Shown in pieces: positions 1 to 64,000 of a stretch of 64,000 bases of DNA (within the stretch, counting starts at the first letter, position 1; each line of letters begins with the position of its first letter). The position numbers were made by a program, and so were the translations under genes. The notes beneath the pieces are model-generated. The model searched no databases and was not told where the DNA came from. It was given only the letters and a program-made list of their open reading frames with translations. The DNA comes from Phycicoccus sp. M110.8. Lineage in GTDB: Bacteria > Actinomycetota > Actinomycetes > Actinomycetales > Dermatophilaceae. Where the stretch lies: contig NZ_JAWDIC010000001.1 in assembly GCF_032464895.1 (NCBI RefSeq), forward strand, positions 248,001-312,000. The letters run 5' to 3'.

Positions 1-35
1 CCTTCTTCGTCATCAAGGGCACCTACGACGTCTGA
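1..35 (+). CDS. 3' end of an unidentified gene (partial)
   Basis: An open frame runs from the window edge to a TGA at 33-35 and ends with the residues FFVIKGTYDV. The codons use G or C in the third position like the following genes, so this is probably a real C-terminus. It is too short to assign a family. It lies 54 bp before lhr on the same strand. Confidence 0.4.
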   Translation, partial: FFVIKGTYDV

Positions 36-89
36 GGCCGGCGCACTAGACCGGCGGGTGTCGGTGGCGGGTGAGAGGCTTGACGCCTG

Positions 90-4949
<4,860 letters not shown>

Positions 4950-4964
4950 GGGAGGCACCGCACC

Positions 4965-5831: not shown

Positions 5832-5834
5832 GCC

Positions 5835-5870
5835 CGGGCCGCAGCGCACACCCTCTCGGGATGCGGCCCG
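5835..5870. terminator. Bidirectional hairpin between nei and the GrpB gene
   Basis: CGGGCCGCA at 5835-5843 pairs with TGCGGCCCG at 5862-5870, with an 18-nt loop. It sits between the convergent nei and GrpB-family genes and probably ends both transcripts. Confidence 0.6.
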
Positions 5871-5916
5871 GTCGCGGCCTGACCGTGCGCCCACCGCTCC
5901 CCGTCGGACCCTTCGC

Positions 5917-6504
5917 CTACGGCGCGGCCGGAGCTCCGGCGCGGGCGAGGATCGCCTCGACCACCTCGGTCTTGGCGTCCGCGTAGTCCTGCACGTAGCG
6001 CCACCGGCGGGTCGCCAGCTCGCGCTTCGTCGCGGCATACAGGTCGCGGTCGTCGGGGTGGGAGCGCAGCCAGTCGCGGAACATCCGCATGCGCGCCACC
6101 TCCGCCTCCGCCCTGCCCGGCGAGAAGACGTGCACGTTGACGTTGTGGGGGCTGCCGTCCTCGACCCTGCGGTAGAGGACGCGGTGCTCCAGCCAGTCGG
6201 GCTCGCGGATCCGCAGGGTGTAGCCGGCCTCCTCCAGCGCAGGGAGGTAAGTCGGCTCGTCCGCCGAGTCGGGCACGAGCAGGAGGACGTCGATGACCGG
6301 CTTCGCCGGCAGGCCCGGCACGGACGTCGACCCGACGTGCTCCACCGTCAGGGCGATGGCGCCCAGCGCACCCCGGATGGCGTCGTGCTCCTGCTGGAAG
6401 ACGACCGGCCACGCCGGGTCGGGGTCGACGACCACGACCGGCACGGCATACGGCGTGACGGCGCCGACGACCGCGGCAGGCGGGGGCGGGTCGTCCTGGA
6501 CCAC
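5917..6504 (-). CDS. GrpB-family protein (nucleotidyltransferase fold)
   Basis: A 195-residue member of the GrpB/UPF0157 family. These proteins share a nucleotidyltransferase-like fold, and the biochemical role of most is unknown; some are fused to dephospho-CoA kinase. The hallmark VEHVGSTSVPGLPAKPVIDV is at about residues 53-72, with the two aspartates of the fold in VID and the later VNVHVF strand. The proposed start is GTG at 6504, 13 bp after the clgR stop, so it may be the last gene of the rimO-pgsA-cinA-clgR run. A second GrpB gene lies at 21.7 kb; the two are clearly diverged. Confidence 0.8.
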   Translation of the reverse strand: MVQDDPPPPAAVVGAVTPYAVPVVVVDPDPAWPVVFQQEHDAIRGALGAIALTVEHVGSTSVPGLPAKPVIDVLLLVPDSADEPTYLPALEEAGYTLRIREPDWLEHRVLYRRVEDGSPHNVNVHVFSPGRAEAEVARMRMFRDWLRSHPDDRDLYAATKRELATRRWRYVQDYADAKTEVVEAILARAGAPAAP

Positions 6505-8188: not shown

Positions 8189-9747
8189 GGCTCCGCCACG
8201 AGGTCGATGCCCTCGGTGCCCACGACGAGGGCGCGGACGATCGAGCCGACCTCGACGCCGGGCAGCAGCGCCGGGTCGATGAGGGTGACGCCGTCGACGT
8301 CGGGTCCCTGGTGGGCGGCCCGCCCGACGACGTACGCCTCGTCGTCCTCGTCCTCGTCGTCGTCGCCGTCCTCGTCGGCGAGGCCCGCGGGCACGGACTC
8401 GACGAGTACCTCGACGACCTCGCCGACCCGCTCCTCGGCCCGCTGGGCGGTGAGCTCCTCGATGAGGGCGGTGAACCGCGCGACCCGCGCCGCCACCTCG
8501 TCCTCCGGCACCTTCGCGGCATACCCCTGCGCCTCGGTGCCGTCCTCGTCGCTGTAGCCGAACACGCCGACCACGTCGAGGCGCGCCGCCACGAGAAAGG
8601 CCTCGAGCTCGTCGAGGTCGGCCTCGGTCTCGCCGGGGAAGCCGACGATGACGTTGCTGCGAATGCCGGCCTCGGGGGCCAGGGCCCGGACCTGCTCGAC
8701 CAGCCCGAGGAACGCCTCCCGGCCGCCGAACCGGCGCATGGTGCGCAGCAGCGGGGCCGAGGCGTGCTGGAAGGAGATGTCGAAGTACGGCACGACCCCG
8801 GGGACCGACGTCATGGCCTCGAGCAGGCCGGGACGGATCTCGGCGGGCTGCAGGTAGGACACGCGCACGCGCTCGATGCCCGGGACGGCGGTGAGCTCGG
8901 GCAGCAGCTTCTCCAGCAGGCCGAGGTCGCCGAGGTCCTTGCCGTAGGACGTGGAGTTCTCCGAGACGAGGAACAGCTCGCGCACGCCGCGCTCGGCGAG
9001 CCAGCGCGCCTCGGCGACGATGTCGTGCGGCCGGCGCGAGACGAACGCCCCGCGGAACATCGGGATGGCGCAGAACGCGCACCGCCTGTCGCAGCCGCTC
9101 GCGATCTTCAGCGGCGCCCAGGGGCGACCGTCCAGCCGGGCCCGCACCACGCGGGGGCCGGACGCCGGGGCGAGCCCGTCGGGCAGGTCGGCCGGGTCGA
9201 GCGCGGCGCCCGCGGCCTGCTCGGGGGACGTGGGGTCGCCGCCGGGGACTCCGGCCGGGGACGTGGTGGTGCCGTGGCCGGGCAGGGCCACACCCGCGGC
9301 GCCGTCCTGGCGCTGCACGGGCGACAGGGGCAGCAGCCGGCGGCGGTCCGACGGGGTGTGCGATGCCGGCGCGTGCCCGTCGAGCACGGCGCGCAGGTGC
9401 GAGGACATGTCGGCGTAGGAGTCGAAGCCCAGGACCGCGTCGGCCTCGGGGAGCTCGTCGGCGAGCTGCTGGCCGTAGCGCTCGGCGAGGCAGCCGACGG
9501 CCACGACGGCCTGCGTGCGGCCCTCGCCCTTGCGCGCGGAGGCCTCGAGCAGCACGTCGATGGAGTCCTTCTTGGCCTGCTCGACGAACCCGCAGGTGTT
9601 GACCACGGCCACGTCGGCGTCGTCGGCGTCGTCGACGAGCAGCCACCCCTCGGCGGCCAGGCGGCCGGCCAGCTCCTCGGAGTCGACCTCGTTGCGGGTG
9701 CACCCCAGGGTGACCAGGGCGACGCTGCGCTGTGCGGTCGTGCTCAT
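8182..9747 (-). CDS. rimO: Ribosomal protein S12 methylthiotransferase RimO
   Basis: A 521-residue radical-SAM enzyme that adds a methylthio group to an aspartate of ribosomal protein S12. The N-terminal MTTase domain shows its three cluster cysteines in [14 protein letters not shown] and VGCLAER. The radical-SAM CxxxCxxC is [12 protein letters not shown]-terminal TRAM domain follows. Two insertions stand out: a roughly 60-residue Pro/Gly/Ala-rich stretch before the radical-SAM core, and a strongly acidic run of Asp and Glu inside the TRAM domain. The start is ATG at 9747, with TAGAGT exactly 7 nt upstream, so the mRNA is probably leaderless. Confidence 0.95.
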
Positions 9748-9802: not shown

Positions 9803-11008
9803 ATGACCGCCACCACAGACCGCGTCGCTGCCCTGCTCGCCCGCCAGCCCGTGCTCGACGGGCACAACGACCTGCTGTGGGAGGCGCGCGAGAAGGTGGG
9901 CTACGACTTCGACCGGCTCGACGTCGGTGCGGGCGGCACGCCGACCCACACCGACCTGCCGCGGCTGCGCCGTGGCGGCGTCGGGGCGCAGTTCTGGTCC
10001 GTCTTCGTGCCCGCCTCCCTCGCCGGCGACGACGCGGTCAGCGCGACGCTGGAGCAGGTCGACGCGGGGCACCAGATGGTGGCCCGGTATGCCGACGAGC
10101 TGGCCTTCGCACGCACGGCTGCCGACGTGCGTGCGGCCTGGGAGTCGGGGCGGATCGCCTCGCTGCTCGGGGCCGAGGGCGGCCACTCGATCAACAACTC
10201 TCTCGCGACCCTGCGGATGCTGCGGGTGCTGGGCGTCGGGTACATGACGCTGACCCACAACAGCAACGTCGACTGGGCCGACTCGGCCACCGACGAGCCC
10301 GTGCTGGGCGGCCTGAGCCCGTTCGGGGTCGAGGTGGTGCGCGAGATGAACCGGATCGGCATGCTCGTCGACCTCTCGCACGTCTCCCCCGACACCATGC
10401 GCGACGCCCTGCGGGTGGCCGAGGTCCCGGCGATCTTCAGCCACTCCTCCGCCAAGGCGGTCTGCGACAGCCCGCGCAACGCGCCCGACGACGTCCTCGA
10501 GGCGCTGCGCGACAACAATGGCGTCTGCATGGTGACGTTCGTGCCGACCTTCGTGAACCCGGACGCAGCGGCCTGGCGCCAGGAGCTCAACGCGGTCGCC
10601 GCCGGGCAGGGGGTCACGCCGGCCGACGCCGACGCGTACACCGCCTTCTACGACGCCTACAAGGCGGAGCACCCGACGCCGAGGGCGACGCTGGCCGACG
10701 TCGTCGCCCACGTCGAGCACGTGCGCGAGGTCGCCGGGGTGGACCACGTCGGGCTCGGTGGGGACTACGACGGCGTGGCCGAGCTTCCCGAGGGCCTGGA
10801 GGACGTCACCGGCTACCCGCGCCTGCTCGAGGCGCTCGCCGACCGCGGGTGGTCCGACGAGGACCTCGGCAAGCTCACCAGCGGCAACATCCTGCGCGTC
10901 ATGCAGGACGCCGAGGACGGGGCCCGCGCGCTGCAGGAGCAGCGCGGCCCGAGCCTGGCCACGATCGGCGAGCTCGACGCCCCCGCGGCGCAGGCCACGG
11001 CCCCCTGA
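9803..11008 (+). CDS. Membrane dipeptidase family (peptidase M19)
   Basis: A 401-residue zinc dipeptidase of the renal/membrane dipeptidase family, which hydrolyses dipeptides and tolerates D-residues at the C-terminal position. The first metal motif HxD is in [10 protein letters not shown] near residue 22. Others are the central Glu in LLGAEGGHS, the His in DLSHVS, and GLGGDYDG near the end of the barrel. No signal peptide is present, so it is probably cytoplasmic in spite of the family name. The start at 9803 is set by the leaderless promoter spacing. It stands alone between two divergent or convergent neighbours. A role in peptide or peptidoglycan-fragment turnover is inference. Confidence 0.9.
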
Positions 11009-11044: not shown

Positions 11045-11707
11045 TCAGTTCCGCCAGCGGGTGATGGTCAGGCCCACGACGCGGGCGATGATGAGGGCGA
11101 CGTACATGACGCCCGCCACCTGCTCGATGATCACGACGGCCCGGGCGTGCGGCAGGACCGCGGTGACGTCGGAGAGCCCCACGCTGGTGAGGTTGGCGAA
11201 CGACAGGTAGAGCAGCTCGAGGAAGCTGCGGGTGCCCTCGCCCTGGTAGGCCACGAAGGACCCGGGGTACAGGATCTGCAGCGCCATGTAGAGGTAGGCG
11301 AACATCCACGAGACCACCGTGAAGTTGGCGCCGACGGCGAAGATCTCGTCCCGCGTGACCCAGGTGTCGTCGAAGAGGTAGCGGATGAGCCCGTAGCCGG
11401 TGTAGCCGTAGAAGACGGCGTGCAGCAGGGCCGACCACAGGCGCACCGTCTCGTTGTCGGGCAGCAGGCCCTCGGCCACGGTCAGCGCCACCACCGGGAC
11501 GCCGATGACGACGGCGACCCAGGTCAGGGCGGGCGTGGCCCGCACGGCATACACGGCAACGAGCAGGACCAGGACGCCGAAGATCCCGATCGCGGTCCGG
11601 CCGCCCGGGGTGTCCCCGAAGAACGGGTACGCGAGCACCGCCACGAGCTGGGCCGTGAGCAGGACCCCGCTCGGGTGCCCCTTGACGGCCCGGAACCACG
11701 CGCGCAT
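11045..11707 (-). CDS. Ion-channel-like membrane protein with unusual pore loop
   Basis: A 220-residue integral membrane protein with about six hydrophobic helices. The last two flank a re-entrant segment reading SFANLTSVGLSDVTAV. This resembles the pore helix and filter of two-helix potassium channels (consensus TxGYGD), but the GYG core is replaced by VGLSD. That makes it a distant ion-channel-family member or a protein that has lost potassium selectivity. No RCK or cyclic-nucleotide domain is attached. The gene lies just downstream of kdpE, but with its own TAGGGT box 6 nt before the ATG, so it is likely transcribed separately. A link to potassium handling is inferred from position and from the pore resemblance only. 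Confidence 0.65.
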   Translation of the reverse strand: MRAWFRAVKGHPSGVLLTAQLVAVLAYPFFGDTPGGRTAIGIFGVLVLLVAVYAVRATPALTWVAVVIGVPVVALTVAEGLLPDNETVRLWSALLHAVFYGYTGYGLIRYLFDDTWVTRDEIFAVGANFTVVSWMFAYLYMALQILYPGSFVAYQGEGTRSFLELLYLSFANLTSVGLSDVTAVLPHARAVVIIEQVAGVMYVALIIARVVGLTITRWRN

Positions 11708-15021: not shown

Positions 15022-15584
15022 CTGCCGATTGTCTCCAACGCGAGGTTGAGCTGGAGCACGTCCACCCGCGGCTCGCCGAGAAAGCCCAGCGCGCGCCCCT
15101 GGGTGTGCTGCTCCACGAGCCGCGCGACGGTGGCGTCGGGCAGCCCACGAGCCGACGCGACGCGGTGCACCTGGGCGCGTGCGTTGGCGGGCGAGATGTG
15201 CGGGTCGAGCCCGCTCGCGGAGGCGGTGAGCGCGTCGGCAGGAGCAGCCGTGCCGTATGCCGTCCGGTAGGCGGCGGCGCGCTCGCGCACCGCCCTGACC
15301 TGGTCGGCGGAGGAGGCTGCGAGGTTCGAGCCGCCGCTGGTGGCTCCGGCATACGCGCTGGTGGACGGGCGCCCGGTGAACCACCGGTCGCCCCGGAAGT
15401 CCTGCCCCAGCAGGCTCGAGCCGACCACGACGCCGTCGCGCCGGACCAGCGAGCCGTCGGCCTGCCCGGGGAAGGCGACCCGGCCGACTGCCCACACCGC
15501 CGCGGGGTAGAGGACGCCGAGCAGGGCGGTGAGGGCGAGCAGCATCCGGGCGGACGCGAGCAGCTGGCGGGTGGTGGAGGTCAT
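15018..15584 (-). CDS. kdpC: KdpC, potassium-transporting ATPase C chain
   Basis: A 188-residue subunit with a single N-terminal transmembrane helix (about residues 15-35) and an extracytoplasmic domain. Family motifs include GSSLLGQDF, WFTGRPSTSAYAG, SGGSNLAAS and GLDPHISPANA. It stabilises the KdpB-KdpA contact and raises ATP affinity of the complex. The gene begins 3 bp after the kdpB stop and ends overlapping the kdpD GTG. Confidence 0.95.
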   Translation of the reverse strand: MTSTTRQLLASARMLLALTALLGVLYPAAVWAVGRVAFPGQADGSLVRRDGVVVGSSLLGQDFRGDRWFTGRPSTSAYAGATSGGSNLAASSADQVRAVRERAAAYRTAYGTAAPADALTASASGLDPHISPANARAQVHRVASARGLPDATVARLVEQHTQGRALGFLGEPRVDVLQLNLALETIGR

Positions 15585-17612: not shown

Positions 17613-19258
17613 GACAGGGCCTCCGCGACGGGACCGAGGGCGAGCGCCGGGAAGAACGTGAGCCCGGCGACGATGACGGCGATGCCGGTCAGCAGCCCGA
17701 CGAACAGGGGGGTGTGGGTGGGCATGGTCCCTGCCGTGGCCGGGCGGGGGTGCTGCTCGGCCAGGAGGCCCGCGAGCCTCAGGACGAGCAGCAGCGGCAC
17801 GAACCGGCCGAGCAGCATGCAGGCGCCGAGCGTCAGGTTGTACCAGGGCGTGTCGGCGCCGAGGCCCGCGAAGGCGCTGCCGTTGTTGTTGGCCGCCGAG
17901 GCGTAGGCGTAGAGCACCTCCGTGAGGCCGTGGGGTCCGGAGGCGAGCATCGCCGACCGCGGGCCGGGCACCGCCAGGGACAGGCCCGCGAAGACGAGGA
18001 CCAGCACGGGCATCACGAGAACGTAGAGCGCCGCGCAGGTCATCTCCTGTCGCCCGATCGTCTTGCCGAGGTACTCGGGGGTGCGTCCGACCATGAGCCC
18101 GGCGACGAAGACCGAGATCAGGGCGATGACCACGATCCCGTACAGGCCCGAGCCCACGCCGCCGGGCGAGACCTCGCCGAGGACCATGTTGGTGAGCACG
18201 ACGCCTCCACCGAGGGGGCTGAAGCTCTCGTGCATCGAGTTGACCGCGCCGGTCGAGGTGCTGGTGGTCGAGGCGGCGAACAGGGTCGACGCCCAGACGC
18301 CGAAGCGCTGCTCCTTGCCCTCCATCGAGCCGGTGACGGCGCTGCTGGCGTGTGCCTCCGCCCAGGTCGTGAGCGCGACACCGGCACCCCACAGCGTGGC
18401 GGCGAATCCGCCGAGCGCCCAGCCCTGGCGGCGGTCGCCGACCATGAGGCCGTAGGTGCGGGTCAGGGCGAAGGGGACGACCAGGAGCAGGAAGACCTCG
18501 AGCAGGCTGGTGACGGCGTTCGGGTTCTCGAACGGGTGGGCGGAGTTGGCGTTGAAGTAGCCGCCCCCGTTGGTGCCCAGCTCCTTGATCGCCTCCTGCG
18601 AGGCGACCAGGCCCCCCCGGATGACCTGGTGCGCACCGGACGGTCCGGTCACCGTCGCTGGGTTGGAGAGGTTCTGCACGACTCCGCCGGCCAGCAGCAC
18701 GACGGCCGCGACGAACGACAGCGGCAGGAGGACACGGACGACACCGCGCACGAAGTCGACCCAGAAGTTGCCGAGGTCGTGTCCGGCCTGGCGGGTCAGG
18801 GCCCGGATGAGCGCGACGGCGACCGCGAGCCCGACCGCGGCCGACACGAAGTTCTGGACGGTCAGCCCCAGGGTCTGCAGGACCGGCGTCGCGCCCACCT
18901 CACCGGCATACGACTGCCAATTGGTGTTGGTGACGAACGAGATGGCGGTGTTCACAGCGGTCGTCAGGCCCATGCCGGCCGCGCCCTGGCGCAGCGGCAG
19001 GTGGGTCTGGGCGACGACGAGGGCGAAGAGGGCCACGATGCCGACCACCGAGAAGGCCATGACGCTCGTCGCGTACGCCCGCCAGCCCTGCTGCGAGTCG
19101 GGCTCGACCCGCACCACGCGGTAGACGAGCCGCTCGACCCGCCAGTGGCGCGTGTCCGTGAAGACGCGCGCCATCCACGCCCCCAAGGGGTGGTAGGCGA
19201 CGGCGAGGAGGGCGACGAGCAGGGCGATGGTCGGCAGGCCGCTGACGGCGTCCGACAT
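17609..19258 (-). CDS. kdpA: KdpA, potassium-binding channel-like subunit
   Basis: A 549-residue polytopic membrane protein, normal for the family. KdpA folds like a four-repeat potassium channel and selects the ion for the pump. Repeats with filter-like loops are seen in [57 protein letters not shown] and [16 protein letters not shown]. The start is ATG at 19258, whose A is shared with the last base of the kdpF TGA (TGATG). The operon continues without a gap into kdpB. Confidence 0.97.
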
Positions 19259-39234: not shown

Positions 39235-39271
39235 AGCGCACACGGCATACCGCTCGCGCTCTACGAGCTCA

Positions 39272-45444: not shown

Positions 45445-47859
45445 TCAGCCCGCGGCGTCCTCGGAGGTCGCGGGAGCCGCTGCGGGCTCCTCGCCACCCT
45501 CGGCGGAGTCGCCACGGCCGCGACGACGGCGGTTGCGGCTGCGACCACTCTCGCGGCGCTCGCCCCGGTCCTCGGAGCGGCCCTCGCCACCCTCGGAGCC
45601 GGACTCGTCGTCGCCGGCGCCCGAGGCGTCGGACCCGGCGGCCTCGGAGGAGGCGTCGCCGCCCTCACCCTCCGGGAGCACCGCGGCGAGCGAGAGCTTG
45701 CCGCGCGGGTCGATCTCCTTGAGCTCGACCTGGACCTTCTGGCCCACGGCCAGGACGTCCTCGACGGCGTCGATCCGCTTGCCGCCGACGAGCTTGCGCA
45801 CCTCGGAGATGTGCAGCAGGCCGTCCTTGCCGGGCAGCAGGGAGATGAACGCACCGAACGTGGTGGTCTTGACGACGGTCCCGAGGAACCGCTCGCCGAT
45901 CTCCGGCATCTGCGGGTTCGCGATGGCGTTGACCATGGCGCGAGCCGCCTCCGCCGACGGGCCGTCGGTGGCGCCGATGTAGACCGTGCCGTCGTCCTCG
46001 ATCGAGATGTCGGCGCCGGTCTCGTCCTGGATCTGGTTGATCATCTTGCCCTTCGGTCCGATGACCTCGCCGATCTTGTCGACCGGGACCTGCACGCTGA
46101 TGACGCGAGGAGCGAAGGGGCTCATCTCGTCGGGCGTGTCGATGGCCTCGTTCATGACGTCGAGGATGTGCAGGCGGGCGTCACGGGCCTGGGTCAGCGC
46201 GCCGGCCAGCACCGAGGCGGGAATGCCGTCGAGCTTGGTGTCGAGCTGGATGGCCGTGACGAACTCGCGCGTGCCGGCGACCTTGAAGTCCATGTCGCCG
46301 AACGCATCCTCGGCACCGAGGATGTCGGTGAGCGCGGCGTACTGCGTCTCGCCGTCGACCTCGTCGGACACCAGGCCCATCGCGATGCCGGCGACCGGGG
46401 CGCGCAGCGGCACACCGGCGTTCAGCAGCGACAGGGTGCTGGCGCAGACCGAGCCCATGGACGTCGAGCCGTTGGAGCCGAGGGCCTCGGACACCTGGCG
46501 GATCGCGTAGGGGAACTCCTCGCGCGTCGGCAGCACGGGCATGAGCGCCCGCTCGGCGAGCGCGCCGTGGCCGATCTCGCGGCGCTTGGGCGAGCCCACG
46601 CGACCGGTCTCACCGGTGGAGAACGGCGGGAAGTTGTAGTTGTGCATGTAGCGCTTGCGCGTCACCGGGGAGAGGGTGTCGAGCTGCTGCTCCATGCGGA
46701 GCATGTTCAGGGTGGTGACACCCATGATCTGGGTCTCGCCGCGCTCGAACAGCGCCGAGCCGTGCACGCGCGGCAGGACCTCGACCTCGGCGCCCAGGGC
46801 GCGGATGTCGGCGAGGCCACGGCCGTCGATGCGGACCTTGTCGCGCAGGATGCGCTGGCGGATGAGCTTCTTCTGCACGGAGCGGTATGCCGCGGAGACT
46901 TCCTTCTCCCGGCCCTCGAACTCCTTGCCCTCACCGGCGAGGGACTCCTTGGCGGCGTCCTTGATCTCGTCGATGCGCTCCTCGCGCTCCTGCTTGCCGG
47001 CGATGGTCAGCGCCTGCGCCAGGTCGGCGGAGGTCGCGGCCTCGACCGCGGCGTACACGTCGTCCTCGTAGTCGAGGAAGATCGGGAACTCCTGGACGGG
47101 CTTGGCGGCCTTGCTCGCCAGCTCGGCCTGCGCCTCGCACAGGACGCGGATGAACTTCTTGGCGGCCTCGAGGCCCTCGGCCACGACCTCCTCGGTCGGG
47201 GCCTGCTTGCCCTCGTTCCTGACCAGGTCCCAGGTGGACTCGGTGGACTCCGCCTCGACCATCATGATGGCCACGTCGTCGCCCGCGATGCGGCCGGCGA
47301 CGACCATGTCGAACGTCGAGCGCTCGATGTCGCTGAAGTTCGGGAAGGCGACCCACTGGCCGTCGATGAGGCTGACCCGGACGCCACCGACCGGGCCGCT
47401 GAACGGCAGGCCCGAGATCTGCGTCGAGGCGCTGGCCGCGTTGATGGCGAGCACGTCGTACTGGTGGTCGGGGTTGAGCGCCAGGACCGTGATGACGACC
47501 TGGACCTCGTTGCGCAGGCCCTTGGTGAAGGTCGGGCGCAGCGGCCGGTCGATCAGGCGGCAGGTGAGGATGGCGTCGGTCGACGGGCGACCCTCACGAC
47601 GGAAGAACGAGCCGGGGATCTTGCCCGCGGCGTACATCCGCTCCTCGACGTCGACGGTCAGGGGGAAGAAGTCGAAACCCTCGCGCGGGTGCTTCCCGGC
47701 GGTGGTGGTGGAGAGGAGCATCGTGTCCTCGTCCAGGTATGCGGCGACGGCGCCGCCGGCCTGCTTGGCCAGTCGTCCGGTCTCGAACCGGACCGTGCGG
47801 GTGCCGAACGAGCCGTTGTCGATGGTGGCTTCGGCGATGGTGATCTCTGGACCCTCCAT
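45445..47859 (-). CDS. pnp: Polynucleotide phosphorylase (GPSI type)
   Basis: An 804-residue 3'-5' exoribonuclease/polymerase. Two RNase PH domains are joined by an all-helical domain. Recognisable stretches are [21 protein letters not shown] with [52 protein letters not shown], then KH ([20 protein letters not shown]) and S1 domains ([20 protein letters not shown]). A long C-terminal extension follows (about residues 725-804), acidic then Arg-rich (RNRRRRGRG), likely disordered and RNA-binding. In Streptomyces the GPSI form also makes (p)ppGpp, but this is debated. ATG follows GGAGGG. It lies 160 bp downstream of rpsO. Confidence 0.97.
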
Positions 47860-50759: not shown

Positions 50760-51701
50760 CTATCCCGGGCGCGTGAGAGTGGCGTGCAGCTCGGCAGGCA
50801 GCTCCTCGCCGAGGGTGCGCGCGGCGAGCCAGGCCGCTCCCCCGACGCCGGACCCACAGCGCGCGACCGGCGCACCCGGCCACCGCGCCGCGATGCGCGC
50901 CTCCACCAGGCCACGCAGCCGTGCCGTCCCGAGCATGCCGCCGCCGAGGACCACGACGCTCGAGTCACCCTCGTCGCGCACCTGGCCCAGCGTCGTGACC
51001 AGCTCGTCCGCCGCCGCCTCGAGGATCGCCGCCGCGGCCGGTGACCCGGCCTCCGCGCACTCGACGACCACCCGCGCCAGCTCGGAGATCCGCACCGGCT
51101 CCACGGCATACGCGGCGCCGACGACGGCCTGGCGGTCCACCTCCGCGCGGCCGGTGAGGTGCTGCGCCACCGCCTCGGCGAGCGGGTCGCCGGGCGTCGC
51201 GACGGGTGCACACGCGTGCCGCACGGCCGCGCGCCCGATCCAGAAGCCCGAGCCGTGGTCACCGAGCAGCCAGCCGAGGCCGTCGGCCACCCGCCCGGCG
51301 TGCCCTCCCACGAACTCCCCGGCGATCGCACCGGTGCCGCTGATGAGCACCGAGCCGTCGGGGTCAGGCGTCCCCGAGGCGAACGCCACGTCGATGTCGC
51401 CGATGAGCACGGGCCCCCCGGGAAGCCCCAGCTCGTGCCAGACCTGCCGCAGCGCCTCGTGCGCACCGGTCTCCGAGCCGAAGCCCGCAGCGCCGATGAC
51501 GTTGCCCCGCACCAGCGACCGGTCCACGCCCTCGAGCGCCTGCTCGAGCGCCGACCGGATCGCCGCCATGGCGGGCCCGACCCCTCGCGAGATCGGGTTG
51601 CCGCCACCCGCCAGCCCCGTGCCCACGACCCTCCCGGAGAGGTCGGCGACGAGCGCGCGGCTGCTCGTCCCGCCGACGTCCATGCCGGCGACGAGGGTCA
51701 C
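50760..51701 (-). CDS. BadF/BadG-type kinase, N-acetylglucosamine-kinase-like
   Basis: A 313-residue ASKHA-fold kinase. The ATP-binding phosphate loops are DVGGTSSRAL at the N-terminus and LISGTGAIAGEFV mid-protein. LLGDHGSGFWIGRAAVRHA and VVVLGGGMLGTARL are also typical of the BadF/BadG/BcrA family that includes human and bacterial GlcNAc kinases. Its GTG overlaps the stop of the SIS gene (GTGA). With that SIS isomerase the likely job is phosphorylation of an amino sugar (GlcNAc or MurNAc-type) from cell-wall turnover; the substrate is inferred from context. Confidence 0.82.
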   Translation of the reverse strand: MTLVAGMDVGGTSSRALVADLSGRVVGTGLAGGGNPISRGVGPAMAAIRSALEQALEGVDRSLVRGNVIGAAGFGSETGAHEALRQVWHELGLPGGPVLIGDIDVAFASGTPDPDGSVLISGTGAIAGEFVGGHAGRVADGLGWLLGDHGSGFWIGRAAVRHACAPVATPGDPLAEAVAQHLTGRAEVDRQAVVGAAYAVEPVRISELARVVVECAEAGSPAAAAILEAAADELVTTLGQVRDEGDSSVVVLGGGMLGTARLRGLVEARIAARWPGAPVARCGSGVGGAAWLAARTLGEELPAELHATLTRPG

Positions 51702-52507: not shown

Positions 52508-53664
52508 GCGGGGATCCTTTCGTGTGGTGTCACCGTATCCGTCGGACTGGTCGTGGGACCCGGCGTCCGGGCGTGCAGGAGCCGGCGGGCCGGTCGCTCG
52601 ACGAGCACGTGCATGCCCCAGGCGGCTGCCCCGAGCACGAGCGCGATCGCGACGACGGCGAGCCCGGCGGACCACCACGCGCCCTGCCCCCACTCGCGCA
52701 GGGCCGACACGACGCCGCGCAGCAGGTAGTGCGTCATGTAGAGGCAGTAGGACGCCTCACCCGCCACGACCATCCACGGCGTCGACAGCCACCGCGCCAG
52801 CAGTCCCTGGGACGCCGCGACGACCGCCACGACAAGTCCCAGCGCGGGAGCCGCCCAGTAGTCGCCCGCGGAGGCCGCGGGCACCAGGGCCAGCACCACC
52901 GGGACGACCAGGAGCCAGGGCGCGAGCCGCCCGAGGCGCAGTCCGCCGCGCACCCACGCGAGGCACAGGAAGGCACCGCCCACGAACTCCCCCATGATCC
53001 GCACGTAGAACATGTGCTCGAGGTTGCCGTTGGGCAGGGCGAACACCGCGAACACCGCGAGCATCGCGGCATACGAGAGGGCGGCGCCGGCCAGCGCGGT
53101 GCGGGCGCGGACCACCCGGGCGAGCAGCACGAACATCACCGGCGCGGTCAGGTAGGCGAACCACTCCGAGCCGATCGACCAGGCAGGGCCGTTGAAGCTC
53201 GGCCGGTCGTGCCACCAGTTGTGCACGAGCAGGACGTTCTCGACGTAGGCGCCGGGGGTGCGCCGGTGGCCGTTCGCACCGATGCCGAGGGTGCCGACCA
53301 GCGCTGCCGTCACGAGGTCGATGTTGAGCGCCACGAAGTGGACCGGCCACACGCGCGCGAACCGGTTGCGGACGAACGACACCGAGGCGCCCCACGAGAA
53401 CCGGCGCATGGAGTCGGCGTAGTTGTACGCGAGGATGAAGCCGCTGAGTGGGAAGAAGAGGTCGACCCCCAGGTACCCCGCGCGCAGCAGCGTGTCGGCC
53501 GGGGCGAGCCAGGGCAGCAGCGCCTCGACGTCGTCCCGGTAGTGGAACAGCACGACCCAGGCCGCGGCGAGCACGCGCAGCCCCGTGAGCGCCGGCAGCG
53601 CGGGTCGGCGCTGGCCGGCGACCGCCGTCAGTGGTCTCCCGCCTTGCTCTCCCGGGCGGCCCAC
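52504..53664 (-). CDS. Acyltransferase 3 family membrane protein
   Basis: About 386 residues, ten transmembrane helices, family acyltransferase 3. Visible hallmarks are LTGLRVLAAAWVVLFHY with the catalytic His, GYLGVDLFFPLSGFILAY, and WSIGSEWFAYL. It lacks an SGNH domain, unlike the gene at 48.5 kb. The start is uncertain. GTG at 53664 gives a 37-bp overlap with the GNAT gene but has no clear ribosome-binding site. CTG at 53631 would give CTGA, the same 4-bp overlap style used elsewhere here, after GGGAGA. It probably O-acylates a surface glycan or amino sugar. Confidence 0.75.
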   Translation of the reverse strand: MGRPGEQGGRPLTAVAGQRRPALPALTGLRVLAAAWVVLFHYRDDVEALLPWLAPADTLLRAGYLGVDLFFPLSGFILAYNYADSMRRFSWGASVSFVRNRFARVWPVHFVALNIDLVTAALVGTLGIGANGHRRTPGAYVENVLLVHNWWHDRPSFNGPAWSIGSEWFAYLTAPVMFVLLARVVRARTALAGAALSYAAMLAVFAVFALPNGNLEHMFYVRIMGEFVGGAFLCLAWVRGGLRLGRLAPWLLVVPVVLALVPAASAGDYWAAPALGLVVAVVAASQGLLARWLSTPWMVVAGEASYCLYMTHYLLRGVVSALREWGQGAWWSAGLAVVAIALVLGAAAWGMHVLVERPARRLLHARTPGPTTSPTDTVTPHERIPA

Positions 53665-54209
53665 TCGTCGGCGCGGACGGCATACACGGCCAGGTCGGTC
53701 CACTGGCCCTTGAACCACGAGCCCTGCTGGAAGTAGGCCTCGCGTCGCATCCCCAGCCGCTCGCAGATCCGGGCGGAGGCGTCGTTCTCGCCGTCGAGCT
53801 GGGCCCACACTCGGTGCACGCCCAGCTCGTCGAACGCCACCCGCACCAGCGCCTCCGCCGCTTCGGTCGCGTAGCCCATGCCCTGCATGTCGGGCGCCAG
53901 CACCCAGCCGATCTCCGCCTGCCGGCCGTCGTGGCCGTCGGGTCCGTCGAGGTGCAGCAGCACGTCCCCGATCACGCGGCCGTCGAGCTCGACGGCGAGG
54001 GTGCAGATGGGGTGGGAGGGCTCGATGCGACCGGCAGTGGCACGTTCGGCGACCATGTCCTGCACCTGCTCGAGCGTCTTCGGCTCGCCCGGGATGTACC
54101 GCACGACGTCCGGCACCGAGCGGTAGGCGAACACGTGCCGCTCGTCACCCGGCCGCAGGCTGCGCAGCACGAGGCGATCGGTCGTGATCGGGAGCCGCAC
54201 GCGCGGCAT
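53628..54209 (-). CDS. GNAT-family acetyltransferase (RimJ/RimL-like)
   Basis: A 193-residue GNAT of the RimJ/RimL type: TDRLVLRSLRPGDERHVF at the N-terminus, the acetyl-CoA loop DMQGMGYATEAAEALVRVAF, and HRVWAQLDGENDASARICERLGM. The acetyl acceptor is unknown (ribosomal protein termini, aminoglycosides and others are used by relatives). The ATG at 54209 has AGGAGC upstream and lies inside a GTATGCCG octamer. It is the first gene of the minus-strand chain that continues into the acyltransferase, SIS and kinase genes. Confidence 0.82.
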   Translation of the reverse strand: MPRVRLPITTDRLVLRSLRPGDERHVFAYRSVPDVVRYIPGEPKTLEQVQDMVAERATAGRIEPSHPICTLAVELDGRVIGDVLLHLDGPDGHDGRQAEIGWVLAPDMQGMGYATEAAEALVRVAFDELGVHRVWAQLDGENDASARICERLGMRREAYFQQGSWFKGQWTDLAVYAVRADEWAARESKAGDH

Positions 54210-54278
54210 ACCTGCTCCTGCCTCCGGGCCTGCCCGGGACCACACGGTCCCCACGCCACCCGGACGGGTCGTCGCGGA

Positions 54279-55725: not shown

Positions 55726-56997
55726 TCAGGCGGCGAGGGCCGCCTCGCGCGCCGGCTCTGCGACCGGGCGGCGTGCCCGCAGCACGGCCCGCAGGCGCCA
55801 GGCGCCGAAGACGGCCAGCAGGCTGATGCCGACGTGGACGCCCACGAAGACGCTGCCGAGACCAGCCCCCAGCAGGAGCCCCGCCACGAGCGGGCCGACC
55901 GCGGAGAACCCGGTCTGCAGGGCCGTGAACAGCCCGAGAGTCGTGCCCACCAGCCCGGAGGGCGCCAAGCTGGCCGTCAGCGGGTTGAGCACCGGCGCGT
56001 ACATCGTCTCGCCCACCGCGAAGATCCCGAAGGTCGTGACGAACAGGGTCGCGGCCAGCTCGGGGGACGAGCCCGCGACGAGGGAGGCGCCCGCGAGCAC
56101 CAGCCACGACAGCGTCCAGATGGCGCCGACGGCGATGAGCAGGGCCGGGCCGCTGCGGCGGGCGGTGAGCCGGACGACGACCATCTGCAGGGCGATGATG
56201 ACGACGCAGTTCACCGCGGCCGCGAGGCCGATGGTGGTCTCGCGCACGTCCAGGACCGTGAGGGCGTATGCCGGGAGCCCGGACTCGAACTGGGCGTAGA
56301 ACCCCAGCGCGAGCGTGACCGTGACCAGGGCCGTCCAGCGCAGGGCGGGCACGGCCCAGATGAGCCGCCACGCCTGGCGCACGCCCGGCGAGCGCACCGG
56401 CTGCTCGAGCGTGGCGTCGGCCACCGGCTGGGACTCCACGCTCCCCCAGCGACGGGCACCGGCGAGCAGGATGAGCGCCGCAGAGACGACGAACCCGGCG
56501 GCAGCGGTCGCGAAGGCAGGCCACATTCCCGACTCGCGGTGCAGGTCCACGACGTAGCCCGCGGCGAACGCACCGACGGCCATGCCGAGCGACTGGCCCG
56601 TGAACTGCCAGGCGAACACCTTGCGGCGGTTGCCGCCACCGACCCAGCGGAGCACGAGCACGGACTGCGCCGGGGCCGCGGCGGTGATGCCGAGGCCGAA
56701 GACGAACATGCCGGTCAGGAACGCCGCCGGCGAGCCCGCGAACCCGAGCCCGACCGCACCGGCCGCCGCCACGACCTTGGCGGCGACGGCCACCAGCACG
56801 GGCGAGACCCGGTCGGCCAGGCGCCCGCCCAAGGGTGCCGCGAGCAGGGCGCCCACGGAGAACAGGCTCGAGGCCGCGGCCGCGGCGAACGAGCCCCAGC
56901 CGCGCGTCGAGGCGGCATACGCGTACTGGTAGGGCAGGACGGTGCCCCAGCCGAGCATGGCGACGGCGGAGGCGACGATGAGGAGACGGGCACGCAT
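55726..56997 (-). CDS. MFS transporter, probably regulated by the divergent MarR
   Basis: A 423-residue, 12-helix major-facilitator protein. Loop motifs are present as [18 protein letters not shown] and, in the second half, less conserved residues. It starts at ATG 56997 ([18 protein letters not shown]); an in-frame extension past this would cover the operator and is unlikely. The substrate is unknown. Divergence from a MarR-family regulator with an AT-rich palindromic region between them is the classic arrangement for an inducible exporter. Confidence 0.8.
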
Positions 56998-58054: not shown

Positions 58055-58061
58055 GCGCGCC

Positions 58062-58552: not shown

Positions 58553-58558
58553 GCGACG

Positions 58559-58564
58559 AGGGTA
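58559..58564 (-). promoter_or_regulatory. Leaderless -10 box of the 28-residue gene
   Basis: TACCCT on the minus strand, then CGTCGC and the ATG at 58552. It overlaps a GTATGCCG octamer at 58562-58569. Confidence 0.4.
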
Positions 58565-58688
58565 TGCCGTGTGCCGGGCGCCCGTGCGCGGCGGCCCGTC
58601 GGGGCAGGCCCTGTGCACGGCGCGCCGTCCGGTCGGGCCCCGTGCGCGGCCGCCCGTCCGGGCGGGCCCCCGCTCCCAGCACACCCGG

Positions 58689-58694
58689 TAGGTT
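58689..58694 (+). promoter_or_regulatory. Leaderless -10 box of the TIM-barrel gene
   Basis: TAGGTT, then GCCCGG and the GTG at 58701 (6-nt spacer). No Shine-Dalgarno is visible. Confidence 0.5.
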
Positions 58695-58700
58695 GCCCGG

Positions 58701-59528
58701 GTGCGCTGGCCCCTCGCCGTGTCGAGCCTCGGAATGCCGGAGGCCGACCTGCCCACGTTCCTCGGCCTGGCGGCGCGCCACGCCTGCACCGGGGTCGAGC
58801 TGCGGGCCGCGCCGGACCAGTCCGTCCGCGTCGGCCTCTCCCCCGCCGACCGGGCGTCGGTGCGGACCGCCCTGGCCGACCACGGTCTCACCGCCCTCGA
58901 CGTGTCCTCCTACGTGCGGGTCTGCCCGCCCGGCGACGACGACGCCGTGGTCGAGGACCTGCGGGCGCACCTGCGGCTGGCCGCCGACATCGGGGCGCTC
59001 GGGGTGCGGGTCTTCCCGGGCGGGGTGGGCGACGGCCACGACGACGAGCGCGCCCGGCGGCGCTTGCGCTCCGTCCAGGGCGAGGCGCGCGGCCTCGGCG
59101 TCGACCTCCTCGTGGAGACGCACGACAGCCACCCCACCGGGTCAGCCGTCGCCCGCCTGCTGGACCCGCTGCCGGAGGCCGGGGCGGTCTGGGACGTCCT
59201 GCACACCTGGCGCGCGGGCGAGGCACCGGCCGAGGCGGTGGCGGCCCTCGGGCCGCGGCTGCGGCTCGTCCAGGTCAAGGACGCCGCCGGACCCGCGACG
59301 GGGGACCCGCTCACGCTGCCCGGCGAGGGCGCGCTGCCCGTCGCCGACGTCCTCGCCGCCCTTGCCGGGGGCGGGTATGCCGGCTGGCTGAGCCTGGAGT
59401 GGGAGCGGCCCTGGTCGCCGGAGCTGCCCGACCTCGACGCCGCCCTGGCCGTCACGCGACCGTGGCTCGACGCTGCGGAGTCCGCCTGTGCCGGCGACCC
59501 ACGAACCGACCGGAGGGGACCGGCATGA
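58701..59528 (+). CDS. Sugar-phosphate isomerase/epimerase-like TIM-barrel protein
   Basis: A 275-residue AP-endonuclease-2/xylose-isomerase-like TIM barrel. Recognisable strands and metal-ligand areas are GVELRAAPDQ, LGVRVFPGG, LLVETHDSHP, VWDVLHTW, LVQVKDA and WLSLEWERPW. The Glu, Asp, His and Glu positions of the metal site can be placed at these points. It overlaps the following dehydrogenase gene by 4 bp (ATGA), so the two probably act in one pathway, perhaps catabolism of a sugar or a hydroxy acid. GTG is the start, after a leaderless box. Confidence 0.8.
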   Translation: MRWPLAVSSLGMPEADLPTFLGLAARHACTGVELRAAPDQSVRVGLSPADRASVRTALADHGLTALDVSSYVRVCPPGDDDAVVEDLRAHLRLAADIGALGVRVFPGGVGDGHDDERARRRLRSVQGEARGLGVDLLVETHDSHPTGSAVARLLDPLPEAGAVWDVLHTWRAGEAPAEAVAALGPRLRLVQVKDAAGPATGDPLTLPGEGALPVADVLAALAGGGYAGWLSLEWERPWSPELPDLDAALAVTRPWLDAAESACAGDPRTDRRGPA

Positions 59529-60517: not shown

Positions 60518-60518
60518 G

Positions 60519-61934
60519 TCAGACCTCGGTGGTCCCGAGCAGCATCCGGACCTCGGCGGCCGTGGTGACCGACCCGGTGGCGAGGACGCCCCCGGAGACA
60601 CCGCCCTCGTCGGCGAGGCCGGCGGCGGTGTCGAGCGCGTCGGGCAGGTTCCGCACGACCGTCACCCGCCCCTCCCCGAAGATGTCGACCGCCACCTCGC
60701 CGAGGTCGTCGGGGTCCATCGCCCGGGGAGACGTCGTGCGGGACACGACGACGTGGTCGAGCACGGGCTCGAGCACCTCGAGGATCTCGGTGGCGTCCTT
60801 GTCCTTGAGGATCGCGATGACACCCACCAGCCGCGCGAAGTTGAACGACTGCTCCAGCGCCTGGCGCAGGGCGACCGCGCCGGCCGGGTTGTGCGCGGCG
60901 TCGACGACGACGGTCGGCGACCGGCGCACGACCTCGAGGCGCCCGGGCGAGGCAGCCTTGGCGAGTGCGGAGCGCACGACGTCGGGGTCGAGCCTCGTCT
61001 CGCCACCGCCGACGAACGCCTCGACGGCCGCGACGGCGGTCATGGCGTTCTGCATCTGGTGCGGGCCGAACAGGGGCAGGAACAGGTCGTCGTAGTCGCC
61101 GGCGAGGCCCTGCATGGAGAACTGCTGCCCGCCGACCGCCACGTCGCTCGCCTTGAAGCCGAAGTCGACGCCCTCGACGGCGAGGCGTGCCCCCACCTCG
61201 AGCGCGCGCTCGCGCAGGATCTCGACGACCTCGGCGTGCGGCTGCAGGGCCGACACGGCGATCGCGCCCTCCTTGATGATCCCGGACTTCTCGGTGGCGA
61301 TGAGCTCGACCGTGTCCCCGAGGAAGTGCTGGTGGTCCAGGTCCACCGGCGTGACCACGGCGACGGACCCGTCGGCGACGTTGGTCGCGTCCCAGCGACC
61401 GCCCATCCCCACCTCGACGACCGCGACGTCGACGGGCGCGTCGGCGAACGCGGCATACGCCACTGCCACGAGCACCTCGAAGTAGGTCATCCGCGGGCCA
61501 CCATCGGCGACCGACCGGGCGTCGACCATCTCGATGAACGGGATGACCTCGTCGTAGGCGGCGAGGAACTTCTCCGCGCTGATCGGCTGGCCCGACAACG
61601 CGATCCGCTCACGCATCGAGTGCAGGTGCGGGGAGGTGAACCGGCCCGTCTTGAGCCCCATCTCCAGCAGCAGGGTCTCGACCAGCCGGGTGGTCGAGGT
61701 CTTGCCGTTGGTGCCGGTGAGGTGGATGACGGGGTAGCCGCGCTGGGGGTCGCCGAGCAGCTCCATCACGGCGGCGATGCGGTCCAGGCTCGGCTCGAGG
61801 TCGTGCTCGGGCGCCCGGGCGAGGATCGCCTCCTCGACCTCGCGCATCCGCTTGGTGACCTCCAGGTTGTGCGCGGCCTCCCGCTGGGCGGCGTCGGGGC
61901 GACCGGATCGTCCAGGGTTCGTCGAGCCGGCCAT
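60519..61934 (-). CDS. folC: Folylpolyglutamate synthase/dihydrofolate synthase
   Basis: A 471-residue Mur-ligase-like enzyme adding glutamates to folate, and in many bacteria joining glutamate to dihydropteroate. P-loop HLTGTNGKTSTTRL near residue 70, the SPHLHSMRERI loop, DLDHQHFLGDTVELIATEKSG, and the C-terminal VVVDAAHNPAGA domain. A 40-residue hydrophilic N-terminus precedes the fold. The ATG shares one base with the ileS stop (TGATG). In many actinobacteria DUF4233 and ndk follow directly; here two plus-strand genes intervene. Confidence 0.95.
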   Translation of the reverse strand: MAGSTNPGRSGRPDAAQREAAHNLEVTKRMREVEEAILARAPEHDLEPSLDRIAAVMELLGDPQRGYPVIHLTGTNGKTSTTRLVETLLLEMGLKTGRFTSPHLHSMRERIALSGQPISAEKFLAAYDEVIPFIEMVDARSVADGGPRMTYFEVLVAVAYAAFADAPVDVAVVEVGMGGRWDATNVADGSVAVVTPVDLDHQHFLGDTVELIATEKSGIIKEGAIAVSALQPHAEVVEILRERALEVGARLAVEGVDFGFKASDVAVGGQQFSMQGLAGDYDDLFLPLFGPHQMQNAMTAVAAVEAFVGGGETRLDPDVVRSALAKAASPGRLEVVRRSPTVVVDAAHNPAGAVALRQALEQSFNFARLVGVIAILKDKDATEILEVLEPVLDHVVVSRTTSPRAMDPDDLGEVAVDIFGEGRVTVVRNLPDALDTAAGLADEGGVSGGVLATGSVTTAAEVRMLLGTTEV

Positions 61935-64000
61935 CAGAGCTTCATCACCTTGATGCGCACGGGCTCGCCGTCGCCGACGACCGCCTCCGCCACGTCGCTG
62001 CGCTGCGGGAGCGCGTCGAGCTGGGGCGCCGAGCCGAACTGGCTGGCCAGCGTCTCCTCCACGATGAGCGCCTGGTGCGCGACCGTCGCCTCCCACACCG
62101 CCTGCGAACCGGTGACCGTCAGCGAGATCCGGTCGGACACCTCGAGTCCCGCGTCGCGGCGTGCCTGCTGGACCGCGCGGACCACGTCCCGGGCCATGCC
62201 CTCCTGGGCGAGCTCGGGGGTCACCTCGGTGTCGAGGACGACGAAACCACCACCGGGCAGCATCGCCGTCGCCGTCGACCCGCCCTGGGCGTCGTCGACG
62301 ACGGTCTCGAGCGTGTACTCGCCCTCGACCAGCTCGAGGCCACCGGAGGTCACGGTCCCGTCGGCCGCGACGGACCAGTCGCCGGACTTGCTGCCCTTGA
62401 TCGCCTGCTGCACGTCGCGGCCCAGCCGCGGACCTGCGGCCCGGGCGTTGACGGTGAGCTTCTGCGAGATGCCGAAGTCGGCCTCACTCGCCTCGCTGAT
62501 GTCGCGCAGGACGACCTCGCGGACGTTGACCTCGTCGGCCACGATCGCGCCGAAGTCCTTGAGCGACAACGCATCCGGCACGACGACCGTCAGCCGTGCG
62601 AGCGGGAGCCGCACCCGCAGGCCACCGGCCTTACGCAGGGACGACGCCACCGAGCAGATCTCGCGGGCCCGGTCCATGCCGGCGACCAGCGCGTGGTCCG
62701 ACGGCAGGTCGGACGCCTCGGGCCAGTCGGTGAGGTGCACCGAGCGGCCGCCGGTCAGTCCGCGCCAGACCTCCTCGGTGACCAGCGGCAGCAGCGGCGC
62801 CGTCACCCGGGACACCACCTCGAGCGCCGTGTAGAGCGTGTCGAACGCCTGCTCGGCCCCGCCGCCACCGGCCTGGCCACCGGTGTCCCAGAACCGCTCC
62901 CGGGAGCGCCGCACGTACCAGTTGGTCAGCACGTCGACGAAGCCGCGCGTGGTCTCGCACGCGCTCGCGACCTCGTACGCGTCGAGCTGGCTGGTCATCG
63001 TCTCGACGTACTCGCGCAGCTTGGCGAGCAGGTACCGGTCGAGCGGGTCGGTCGAGGCGGTCGACCACTTGGCGGCATACCCCTCACCACCACGGAAGGC
63101 GTTGGCGTACAACGAGAAGAAGTACCAGGTGTTCCACAGGGGGATGATCACCTGGCGCACGCCGTCACGGATCCCCTGCTCGGTGACGACGAGGTTGCCG
63201 CCGCGCAGGATCGGGCTCGACATGAGGAACCAGCGCATCGCGTCGGCCCCGTCGCGGTCGAACACCTCGCGCACGTCGGGGTAGTTGCGAAGCGACTTGC
63301 TCATCTTCTGGCCGTCGGAGCCCAGGACGATGCCGTGGCAGATGACCGAGCTGAACGCCGGCCGGTCGAACAGCGCAGTGGCCAGGATGTGCAACGTGTA
63401 GAACCAGCCGCGCGTCTGGCCGATGTACTCCACGATGAAGTCGGCCGGGAAGTGGTGCTCGAACCACGCGGCGTTGTCGAACGGGTAGTGCACCTGCGCG
63501 TAGCTCATCGACCCGGAGTCGAACCACACGTCGAGGACGTCCTCGACCCGGCGCATCGTCGACTGCCCCGTCGGGTCGTCGGGGTTCGGTCGGGTCAGCT
63601 CGTCGACGAACGGGCGGTGCAGGTCGACCTCGCCGTCGGCGTTGCGGGGCAGCCGGCCGAAGTCGCGCTCGAGCTCCTCGAACGAGCCGTAGACGTCGAT
63701 CCGCGGGTACTGCGGGTCGTCCGAGCGCCACACCGGCACGGGGCTCCCCCAGAACCGGTTGCGGGTGATCGACCAGTCGCGGGCGTTCTCCAGCCACTTG
63801 CCGAACTGGCCGTGCTTGGTGTGCTCCGGGGTCCAGGCGATCTGCTCGTTGAGCTCGAGCATCCGCTCCTTGAACCTGGTCACCTCGACGAACCAGCTCG
63901 AGACGGCCTTGTAGATCAGCGGCTGCCGGCACCGCCAGCAGTGCGGGTAGGAGTGCGCGTAGGACTCACGGCGCAGCAGCACCGTGCCCTCGGTGACGGC
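61934..64000 (-). CDS. ileS: Isoleucyl-tRNA synthetase, 3' part (5' end beyond the window)
   Basis: At least 688 C-terminal residues of a type 2 (long) IleRS; the gene runs on past the window edge, so the HIGH motif is not included. Visible parts: the CP editing-domain end and the catalytic core [19 protein letters not shown], the [17 protein letters not shown] and [15 protein letters not shown] stretch, KMSKS in [14 protein letters not shown], and the tRNA-binding C-terminal domain. The TGA shares its last base position with the folC ATG (TGATG), so ileS-folC are coupled. ValS occupies this slot in Mycobacterium, but the sequence here is IleRS-like. Confidence 0.93.

Follow-up and report, generated by a model that had tools for sequence, protein, structure and literature searches.

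To our knowledge, DNA uptake sequences are known only from the Neisseriaceae and the Pasteurellaceae, both of which are Gram-negative. In the Neisseriaceae, the DNA uptake sequence (DUS) reaches about 940-5,900 copies, the family uses several words, and some related genera have none that is obvious (PMC3630211, excerpts). DUS are spaced about 1,150-1,500 nt apart (PMC2397512, excerpts), and paired DUS or paired uptake signal sequences (USS) act as terminators (excerpts of PMC2397512 and PMC7811141). The actinobacterium Micrococcus luteus needs its tad genes for transformation (PMC4322843, excerpts). Here, we describe the octamer CGGCATAC, which is strongly over-represented in a 64,000-nt stretch of Phycicoccus sp. 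M110.8 (contig NZ_JAWDIC010000001.1, positions 248,001 to 312,000; this whole stretch is called the window). The word could represent another instance of DNA-uptake tagging that has not been reported so far. Probably it serves a family of actinobacteria, the Dermatophilaceae/Intrasporangiaceae and their kin, as the uptake sequence by which these presumably naturally transformable bacteria recognise their own DNA.

The window contains 33 exact copies of CGGCATAC, 19 on the plus and 14 on the minus strand, in agreement with a preliminary description that had counted about 33 copies on both strands by eye and whose eleven cited positions each lie within three bases of a real copy. This number is far above chance, given that 100 dinucleotide shuffles of the window yielded 0.98 copies on average and five at most, and that a third-order Markov model expects 1.43 copies even if fitted with the motif copies left in. 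Among all 8-mers with at least eight copies in the window, CGGCATAC has the top z-score. The genome holding the window (G000; 4.12 Mb in seven contigs) contains 1,242 forward and 1,234 reverse copies, and the genome-wide count proposed in the preliminary description is thus 2,476, compared to 135 (61 + 74) for the reversed pattern used as control. The same description had named two possible objections, namely a count at the level of a third-order Markov model and an equal enrichment of all TAT-GCC contexts, and neither was found. In a 464-kb sample of G000, consisting of the window and the loci L122-L141, the word occurs 272 times, compared to 2.2 expected with the copies masked (about 126-fold), while the one-mismatch neighbours are mostly present at chance level to about 3-fold, the highest ratio being that of TGGCATAC (8 against 0.7 expected). 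The word has sharp edges, its sole extension being that the second base upstream is preferentially C (69%), and it is not palindromic, as it differs from its own reverse complement.

That CGGCATAC is a DNA-level signal and not a codon effect is well supported. Most of the coding copies read Tyr-Ala or Ala-Tyr, which would be expected if a codon-pair or protein-level bias for Tyr-Ala made the word. However, shuffling synonymous codons within the genes of the G000 sample, to which the following numbers also refer unless another genome is named, yields only 15.4 +/- 3.6 copies (maximum 25 in 60 shuffles) against 228 real ones, and the density between genes (0.61/kb) is about that within coding regions (0.57/kb). 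In addition, the relative G178, whose own word is CGGCATCC, has only 30 TAT against 2,597 TAC codons in its sample. The synonymous-shuffle control excludes codon bias as the source of the word, and it is hardly conceivable that a bias for Tyr-Ala is behind it. Two statements of the preliminary description hold accordingly: codon bias alone is insufficient, and there is a signal at the DNA level, for which the lineage-specific presence described below also speaks. In G142, the word is even denser between genes than within (1.35 against 0.87 per kb), and so is CGGCATCC in G178 (3.11 against 0.79 per kb). How many of the places allowed by the encoded protein are filled differs between the readings, with 134 of 215 for Tyr-Ala, 71 of 160 for Ala-Tyr, 17 of 100 for Gly-Ile with the rare ATA codon, 6 of 30 for Met-Pro, and none of the 14 Arg-His-Thr and 7 Val-Cys places, so the frames are not used equally. 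The word accounts for 134 of the 173 TAT codons and for 17 of the 30 ATA codons.

The window copies comprise 22 Tyr-Ala, 6 Ala-Tyr and 2 Gly-Ile readings with ATA, 2 intergenic copies and 1 copy over a gene start. All reading types of the preliminary description (Tyr-Ala, Ala-Tyr, Gly-Ile-Pro with ATA) were recovered, as were its copies between genes at 39243 and 58562 and the one over a start codon near 54209. Genes and frames were called with our own simple codon-model caller and are not a curated annotation. The copies, each located by exact match and gene call, are:

1811..1818, minus strand, Tyr-Ala frame of the gene at 90-4949 (plus strand)
4088..4095, minus strand, Tyr-Ala frame of the same gene at 90-4949 (plus strand)
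6033..6040, plus strand, Tyr-Ala frame
6444..6451, plus strand, Tyr-Ala frame
8517..8524, plus strand, Tyr-Ala frame
10087..10094, minus strand, Tyr-Ala frame
11545..11552, plus strand, Tyr-Ala frame
15255..15262, minus strand, Ala-Tyr frame
15347..15354, plus strand, Tyr-Ala frame
18904..18911, plus strand, Tyr-Ala frame
21474..21481, minus strand, Ala-Tyr frame
22394..22401, plus strand, Tyr-Ala frame
23702..23709, plus strand, Tyr-Ala frame
33633..33640, plus strand, Tyr-Ala frame
33849..33856, minus strand, Gly-Ile-Pro frame with the rare ATA codon
35919..35926, minus strand, Tyr-Ala frame
37669..37676, plus strand, Tyr-Ala frame
38538..38545, minus strand, Gly-Ile-Pro frame with the rare ATA codon; by alignment, kept at the aligned site in L001, L004, L006, L007 and L009
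39243..39250, plus strand, intergenic
40496..40503, minus strand, Ala-Tyr frame
41081..41088, minus strand, Ala-Tyr frame
42981..42988, plus strand, Tyr-Ala frame
46885..46892, minus strand, Ala-Tyr frame, within an open reading frame used as protein-search query, which we take to be pnp
51104..51111, plus strand, Tyr-Ala frame
53067..53074, plus strand, Tyr-Ala frame
53678..53685, plus strand, Tyr-Ala frame
54204..54211, plus strand, over the called start of the gene at 53628-54209 (minus strand)
56266..56273, minus strand, Ala-Tyr frame
56913..56920, plus strand, Tyr-Ala frame
58562..58569, minus strand, intergenic
59375..59382, minus strand, Tyr-Ala frame
61451..61458, plus strand, Tyr-Ala frame
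63073..63080, plus strand, Tyr-Ala frame

The positions of CGGCATAC turn over yet are partly held among relatives. Fifteen relatives were aligned to the window, and the eight of these with at least eight copies of their own (L002, L004, L005, L006, L007, L009, L010, L013) have kept 13 of 39 aligned sites, compared to about 6 predicted by sequence identity by itself. Of 25 sites aligned in the remaining seven, 1 has been kept (about 4 expected).

The preliminary description had suggested looking for the motif in related genomes, and there it is indeed present. Based on a hand count of the table, 107 of the 186 genomes of the family set contain at least 390 copies (maximum 4,724), 13 contain 150-389, and the other 66 stay below 150. 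None of the 361 genomes from 18 other families of the same order, drawn evenly from the larger group at a completeness of at least 90%, contains more than 180 copies; a few of them reach about four times their own control at low counts, e.g. 24 against 6. Examples of word-rich species are Knoellia sinensis (2,485), Knoellia flava (2,541), Phycicoccus sp. Soil802 (2,241), Ornithinimicrobium cavernae (1,637), and Pedococcus sp. 5OH_020 (836), while Austwickia chelonae (83) and Phycicoccus avicenniae (18) have low counts. Single genomes also stand apart from their closest relatives: G008 contains 37 copies (sisters 1,251-1,660), G084 contains 19 (genus mates 3,681 and 1,062), and G114 contains 50 (394-1,901 in the other 30 members of genus g42). 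In some genomes (g4, g18) the reversed control itself reaches up to 577 copies, and therefore the enrichment there is just about 2.5- to 6.5-fold, the word-poor G008 excepted. When the octamer strings were searched in the open-licence texts of PubMed Central (PMC), no related paper was among the matches listed. No paper on an uptake sequence in Intrasporangiaceae, on natural competence in Dermatophilaceae, on uptake sequences with natural transformation in Actinomycetota, or on these topics in Knoellia, Janibacter and Phycicoccus together was found in this literature either, and for over-represented uptake sequences in Actinobacteria the sole match was a review of pathogens, which is not to say that none is in print.

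Some of the CGGCATAC-poor genomes have other words, as revealed by screening samples of 80-180 kb for any over-represented 8-mer. CGGCATCC, which is one base off CGGCATAC, occurs 80 times in the sample of G178 (8.6 expected), and CCCCTTCG occurs 65 times in that of G056 (11.8 expected) and 76 times in that of G092 (10.3 expected). Across the 186 genomes, CCCCTTCG has 1,198-3,180 copies in 19, which are exactly the genera g27 and g36, and less than 400 in the rest. Because the weaker words CGGCGTAC (G015, G014), CCGCATCG (G083), and CGCCGTAC (G084) are enriched but do not show the same-strand repulsion described next, they are left tentative. By analogy, the replacement words in some relatives may be likened to the dialects of DUS.

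Concerning their arrangement, the copies have a density of 0.59/kb and a mean spacing of 1,556 bp in the G000 sample, and consecutive copies switch orientation in 171 of 251 cases. Pairs in the same orientation within less than 1 kb are rare, barring a few tandem clusters below 50 bp. If the copies are redistributed among the protein-permitted places, with pair counts taken as sums of three bins, 67 same-orientation pairs below 1 kb are expected but only 30 are found, whereas opposite-orientation pairs are found as often as expected (94 and 94). Correspondingly, a copy in the same orientation lies no more than 600 bp from 41% of the Tyr-Ala places that are not used and from 8% of those that are, but an opposite-orientation copy is that close to 32% of the unused and 31% of the used places. 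The numbers of same-orientation pairs below 1 kb are also reduced in relatives and for other words, with 95 against 158 in G142 and 162 against 220 for CGGCATCC in G178 (both compared with label shuffles), 2 against 8.0 for CCCCCTTCG in G056, and 21 against 29.9 for CCCCTTCG in G092 (p 0.002). Repulsion is absent for two unenriched neighbour words in G000. On each strand, the spacing is more even than random, with a coefficient of variation of 0.76 against 0.93 under uniform placement. Given that repulsion acts only on the same strand, the user of the word seems to be satisfied by about one copy per strand and kb, and to treat the strands separately. Same-strand repulsion is not known to have been described for DUS or USS, including in the excerpts of PMC1939737, PMC7811141 and PMC2397512. 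Close divergent pairs (minus followed by plus) are mostly intergenic, in 11 of 13 cases in G142, 15 of 16 in G178 for its own word, and 3 of 4 in G000. Many of those in G142 are inverted repeats with extended stems, and one hairpin folds as a 25-bp stem with -61 kcal/mol (z -10).

The candidate uptake machinery was compared across 74 genomes, chosen by hand out of the 186 as a contrast set, of which 35 are rich in CGGCATAC, 31 poor and 8 intermediate. ComEC was found in all 74, and comEA adjoins comEC in G000. The ComEC match in G114, the sole member of genus g42 without the word, covers only positions 1-150 of 270 (G114:C11:7924-8364), for which a contig edge or a broken gene are both possible explanations. 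A type IVa pilus was rejected as the uptake machine, its marker PilM being found in just 2 of the 74 genomes. G000 encodes a compact Tad locus (G000:C1, about 600.5-605.3 kb) of the order tadA-tadB-tadC-flp-tadE-like, which comprises an ATPase, two TadB/C-like proteins, a small pilin-like protein and TadE-like proteins. A tadA orthologue, either whole or in pieces, is present in all 35 rich but only 23 of the 31 poor genomes (Fisher p = 0.0014, kinship ignored), and also in all 8 intermediate ones (in pieces in G004). Five of the eight poor genomes without tadA (G001, G022, G038, G068, G069, G093, G096, G097) were screened for any over-represented word and none stood out, while at least five of the 23 poor genomes with tadA carry another firm word (G052, G056, G063, G092, G178). 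As the pilus is also found in word-free genomes, it is not sufficient for the word, and it is older and more widespread. Thus, the Tad pilus is possibly needed for the word but clearly not sufficient. The family TIGR03819 (helicase/secretion TadA) could not be used as a marker because motif-poor genomes also score over its cut-off, which is exceeded in 70 of 74 genomes. Divergent from tadA in G000 lies a gene for a 1,449-residue protein with FHA and FtsK/EccC-like parts (L139:5471-9820, plus strand), and FHA-like N-termini were seen by eye at the same place in G178 (L222:6432) and G092 (L223:5900). In G068, 35 residues matching the C-terminus of tadC are found in a 36-residue frame (G068:C1:1396469-1396573), perhaps what is left of a tad locus that has decayed; no word stood out in this genome.

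The tad locus is interrupted by mobile DNA in six genomes. The distance between two tadA pieces on the same contig is about 71 kb in G139, 11 kb in G100, 16 kb in G004, and 79 kb in Pedococcus sp. 5OH_020; the pieces of G045 are on two contigs and were not counted as an insertion. In G084, the C-terminal piece of tadC is found 37 kb off, with a large serine recombinase gene and one for a TadE-like protein as neighbours, and in G178 the tadC match goes no further than residue 258 of 317, beyond which lies low-GC DNA that carries GmrSD and HEPN genes. Three of the inserts (G084, G100, G139) have large serine recombinases at their borders, in G100 along with a phage major head protein, and none was found in the short ends read of the G004 insert. 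The word may be depleted in this DNA: the G100 insert contains 1 copy within 11,089 bp (the genome-wide count predicts about 12), the low-GC stretch of G178 none in 3,166 bp (about 3 expected), the insert ends of G139 1 in 8 kb (about 5 expected), and those of G004 none in 7 kb (less than 1 expected). Mobile elements inside competence genes are a known pattern and are held to block transformation (PMC4774983, excerpts), so the insertions support, without proving it, a role of the Tad pilus in transformation. As further observations, the G004 insert carries a protein of the DprA family (PF02481; L230:1124-1978, plus strand), a family of recombination mediators, and G178 has a 39-bp tandem repeat of 11.5 copies with 99% matches at L236:7051-7500, extending to the end of the fetched stretch.

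If CGGCATAC is an uptake sequence, DNA bearing the word would be bound and drawn in by the compact Tad/Flp competence pilus, handed over to ComEA and ComEC, and then recombined. Because tagged fragments would be taken up preferentially, biased gene conversion (molecular drive) would make the word accumulate at all sites where the encoded protein leaves room for it. The redundancy is limited to copies of the same orientation, and therefore the word is probably read with polarity, in which case each copy might license one strand or one direction for about 1 kb. The transformability of the family, the part played by the word during uptake, the nature of its receptor and the licensing by strand are inferences from these patterns. 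More tentatively, and with a somewhat less than even chance of being right as a whole, the Actinomycetota could have evolved an uptake system independently, which would use a Tad instead of a type IVa pilus, read the word strand by strand, replace words between genera, and be switched off repeatedly by integrative elements inserting into tadA or tadC.

Several observations weigh against an uptake function. The type IVa pilus marker PilM is nearly absent, and tadA is found not only in most of the poor genomes but also in 7 of 8 outgroup genomes without CGGCATAC. No clear word was found in the samples of G008, G010, G020, G088, G160, and G183/G185 although the pilus is present. The within-genus losses of the word in G008 and G114 are not explained by tadA, which both retain. 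Conversely, G093 contains 3,180 copies of CCCCTTCG yet neither a tadA nor a tadC orthologue, the latter being present at this locus in its sister species G091 and G092, and in the word-rich Knoellia flava only residues 2-93 of tadA were found, possibly because of a contig edge. Genomes with split tadA also stay word-rich (4,724 copies in G100, 1,934 in G139). Where words persist with a split or missing tadA, the loss must be assumed to be recent. CCCCTTCG does not resemble CGGCATAC, unlike the dialects of DUS, which have a core in common, and the repulsion is missing for CGGCGTAC, CCGCATCG, and CGCCGTAC (31-63 copies each). Uptake by H. influenzae is reported to be independent of USS orientation (PMC1939737, excerpts), and a strand-specific repulsion is therefore not predicted by the known mechanism. 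Lastly, the open-licence PMC literature yielded no experimental results on transformation, binding, or uptake in these organisms.

The main rival able to account for the strand effect is a Chi-like site, a one-strand word that halts helicase-nuclease resection at broken ends and thereby favours recombination. Strand-specific redundancy over about 1 kb would be expected of such a signal. Chi sites are, however, biased towards one replication strand, and if the direction of replication is roughly approximated by the GC skew of 20-kb stretches, CGGCATAC is evenly distributed on the G-rich and C-rich strands in the samples of three genomes (141/131, 188/200, 237/272). Among the 35 CGGCATAC-rich genomes of the contrast set, RecC (PF04257) was found in just 11, and in the whole set in 33 of 74; it was not found in G000. 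The RecBCD-Chi reading was rejected on this patchy distribution, and a Chi-like site in general, weakened by the RecC pattern and the missing strand bias, is unlikely. The same evenness bears on a site for a chromosome-organising or nucleoid protein without relation to uptake. Such a role would suit the genome-wide spread and the even spacing per strand, but apart from the lack of a replichore-type bias by the same proxy it is difficult to reconcile with chance-level counts in the same-genus species G008, G084, and G114 and with different words in other genera, and we consider it quite improbable. KOPS are oriented in a polar manner from origin to terminus. Of the functions listed in the preliminary description, a DNA-uptake-like sequence fits best, whereas a segregation or chromosome-organising motif of the KOPS type is disfavoured by the even strands and the chance-level counts in congeners; the suggested comparison of orientation by replichore could be made with the GC-skew proxy and gave no bias. 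Equally improbable is a modification-linked word, recognised by a methyltransferase or by biased repair and maintained by mutation or selection. The abundant octamer HIP1 of cyanobacteria is linked to methyltransferases (PMC4390886, excerpts), and a lineage-specific presence would suit an orphan enzyme. HIP1 is palindromic, though, which CGGCATAC is not, and neither methylation nor mutation gives a reason why copies of the same orientation should repel each other while those of opposite orientation are neutral.

If CGGCATAC is indeed an uptake sequence, such words in high-GC Gram-positives would provide an independent test of how they arise. Natural transformability would be predicted across a large family, and adding the word to donor DNA would open a route to genetic tools. 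The same-strand repulsion would be a measurable footprint of the mechanism that could also be searched for in Neisseria and Haemophilus genomes.

Compared to the DUS of the Neisseriaceae, CGGCATAC is similarly a short non-palindromic word present on both strands in thousands of copies, with several words in the family and word-free relatives. Close inverted pairs are also shared, and the spacing of 1,556 bp is near the about 1.1-1.5 kb of DUS (PMC2397512, excerpts). However, the word and the phylum are different, 72 of the 74 genomes have no PilM-type IV pilus, and no ComP is known. Dialects of DUS share a core but CCCCTTCG and CGGCATAC do not, and the excerpts of PMC2397512 do not report a repulsion restricted to the same strand. 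The USS of the Pasteurellaceae are comparable with a spacing of about 1,000 bp and pairs acting as terminators (PMC7811141, excerpts). In contrast to H. influenzae with its reportedly orientation-independent uptake (PMC1939737, excerpts), copies of the same orientation are redundant here and those of opposite orientation are not. The interrupted tad loci resemble the interruptions of comK, comYC, comFA, and comM in that recombinase-bearing elements are lodged in genes that presumably encode the competence apparatus (PMC4774983, excerpts), but the targets here are tadA and tadC, whose role in transformation is presumed. The Tad/Flp-dependent transformation of the actinobacterium Micrococcus luteus is matched in G000 by the compact tad locus and comEA/comEC, while an uptake sequence for Micrococcus luteus is named neither in the excerpts of PMC4322843 nor in PMC12849477.

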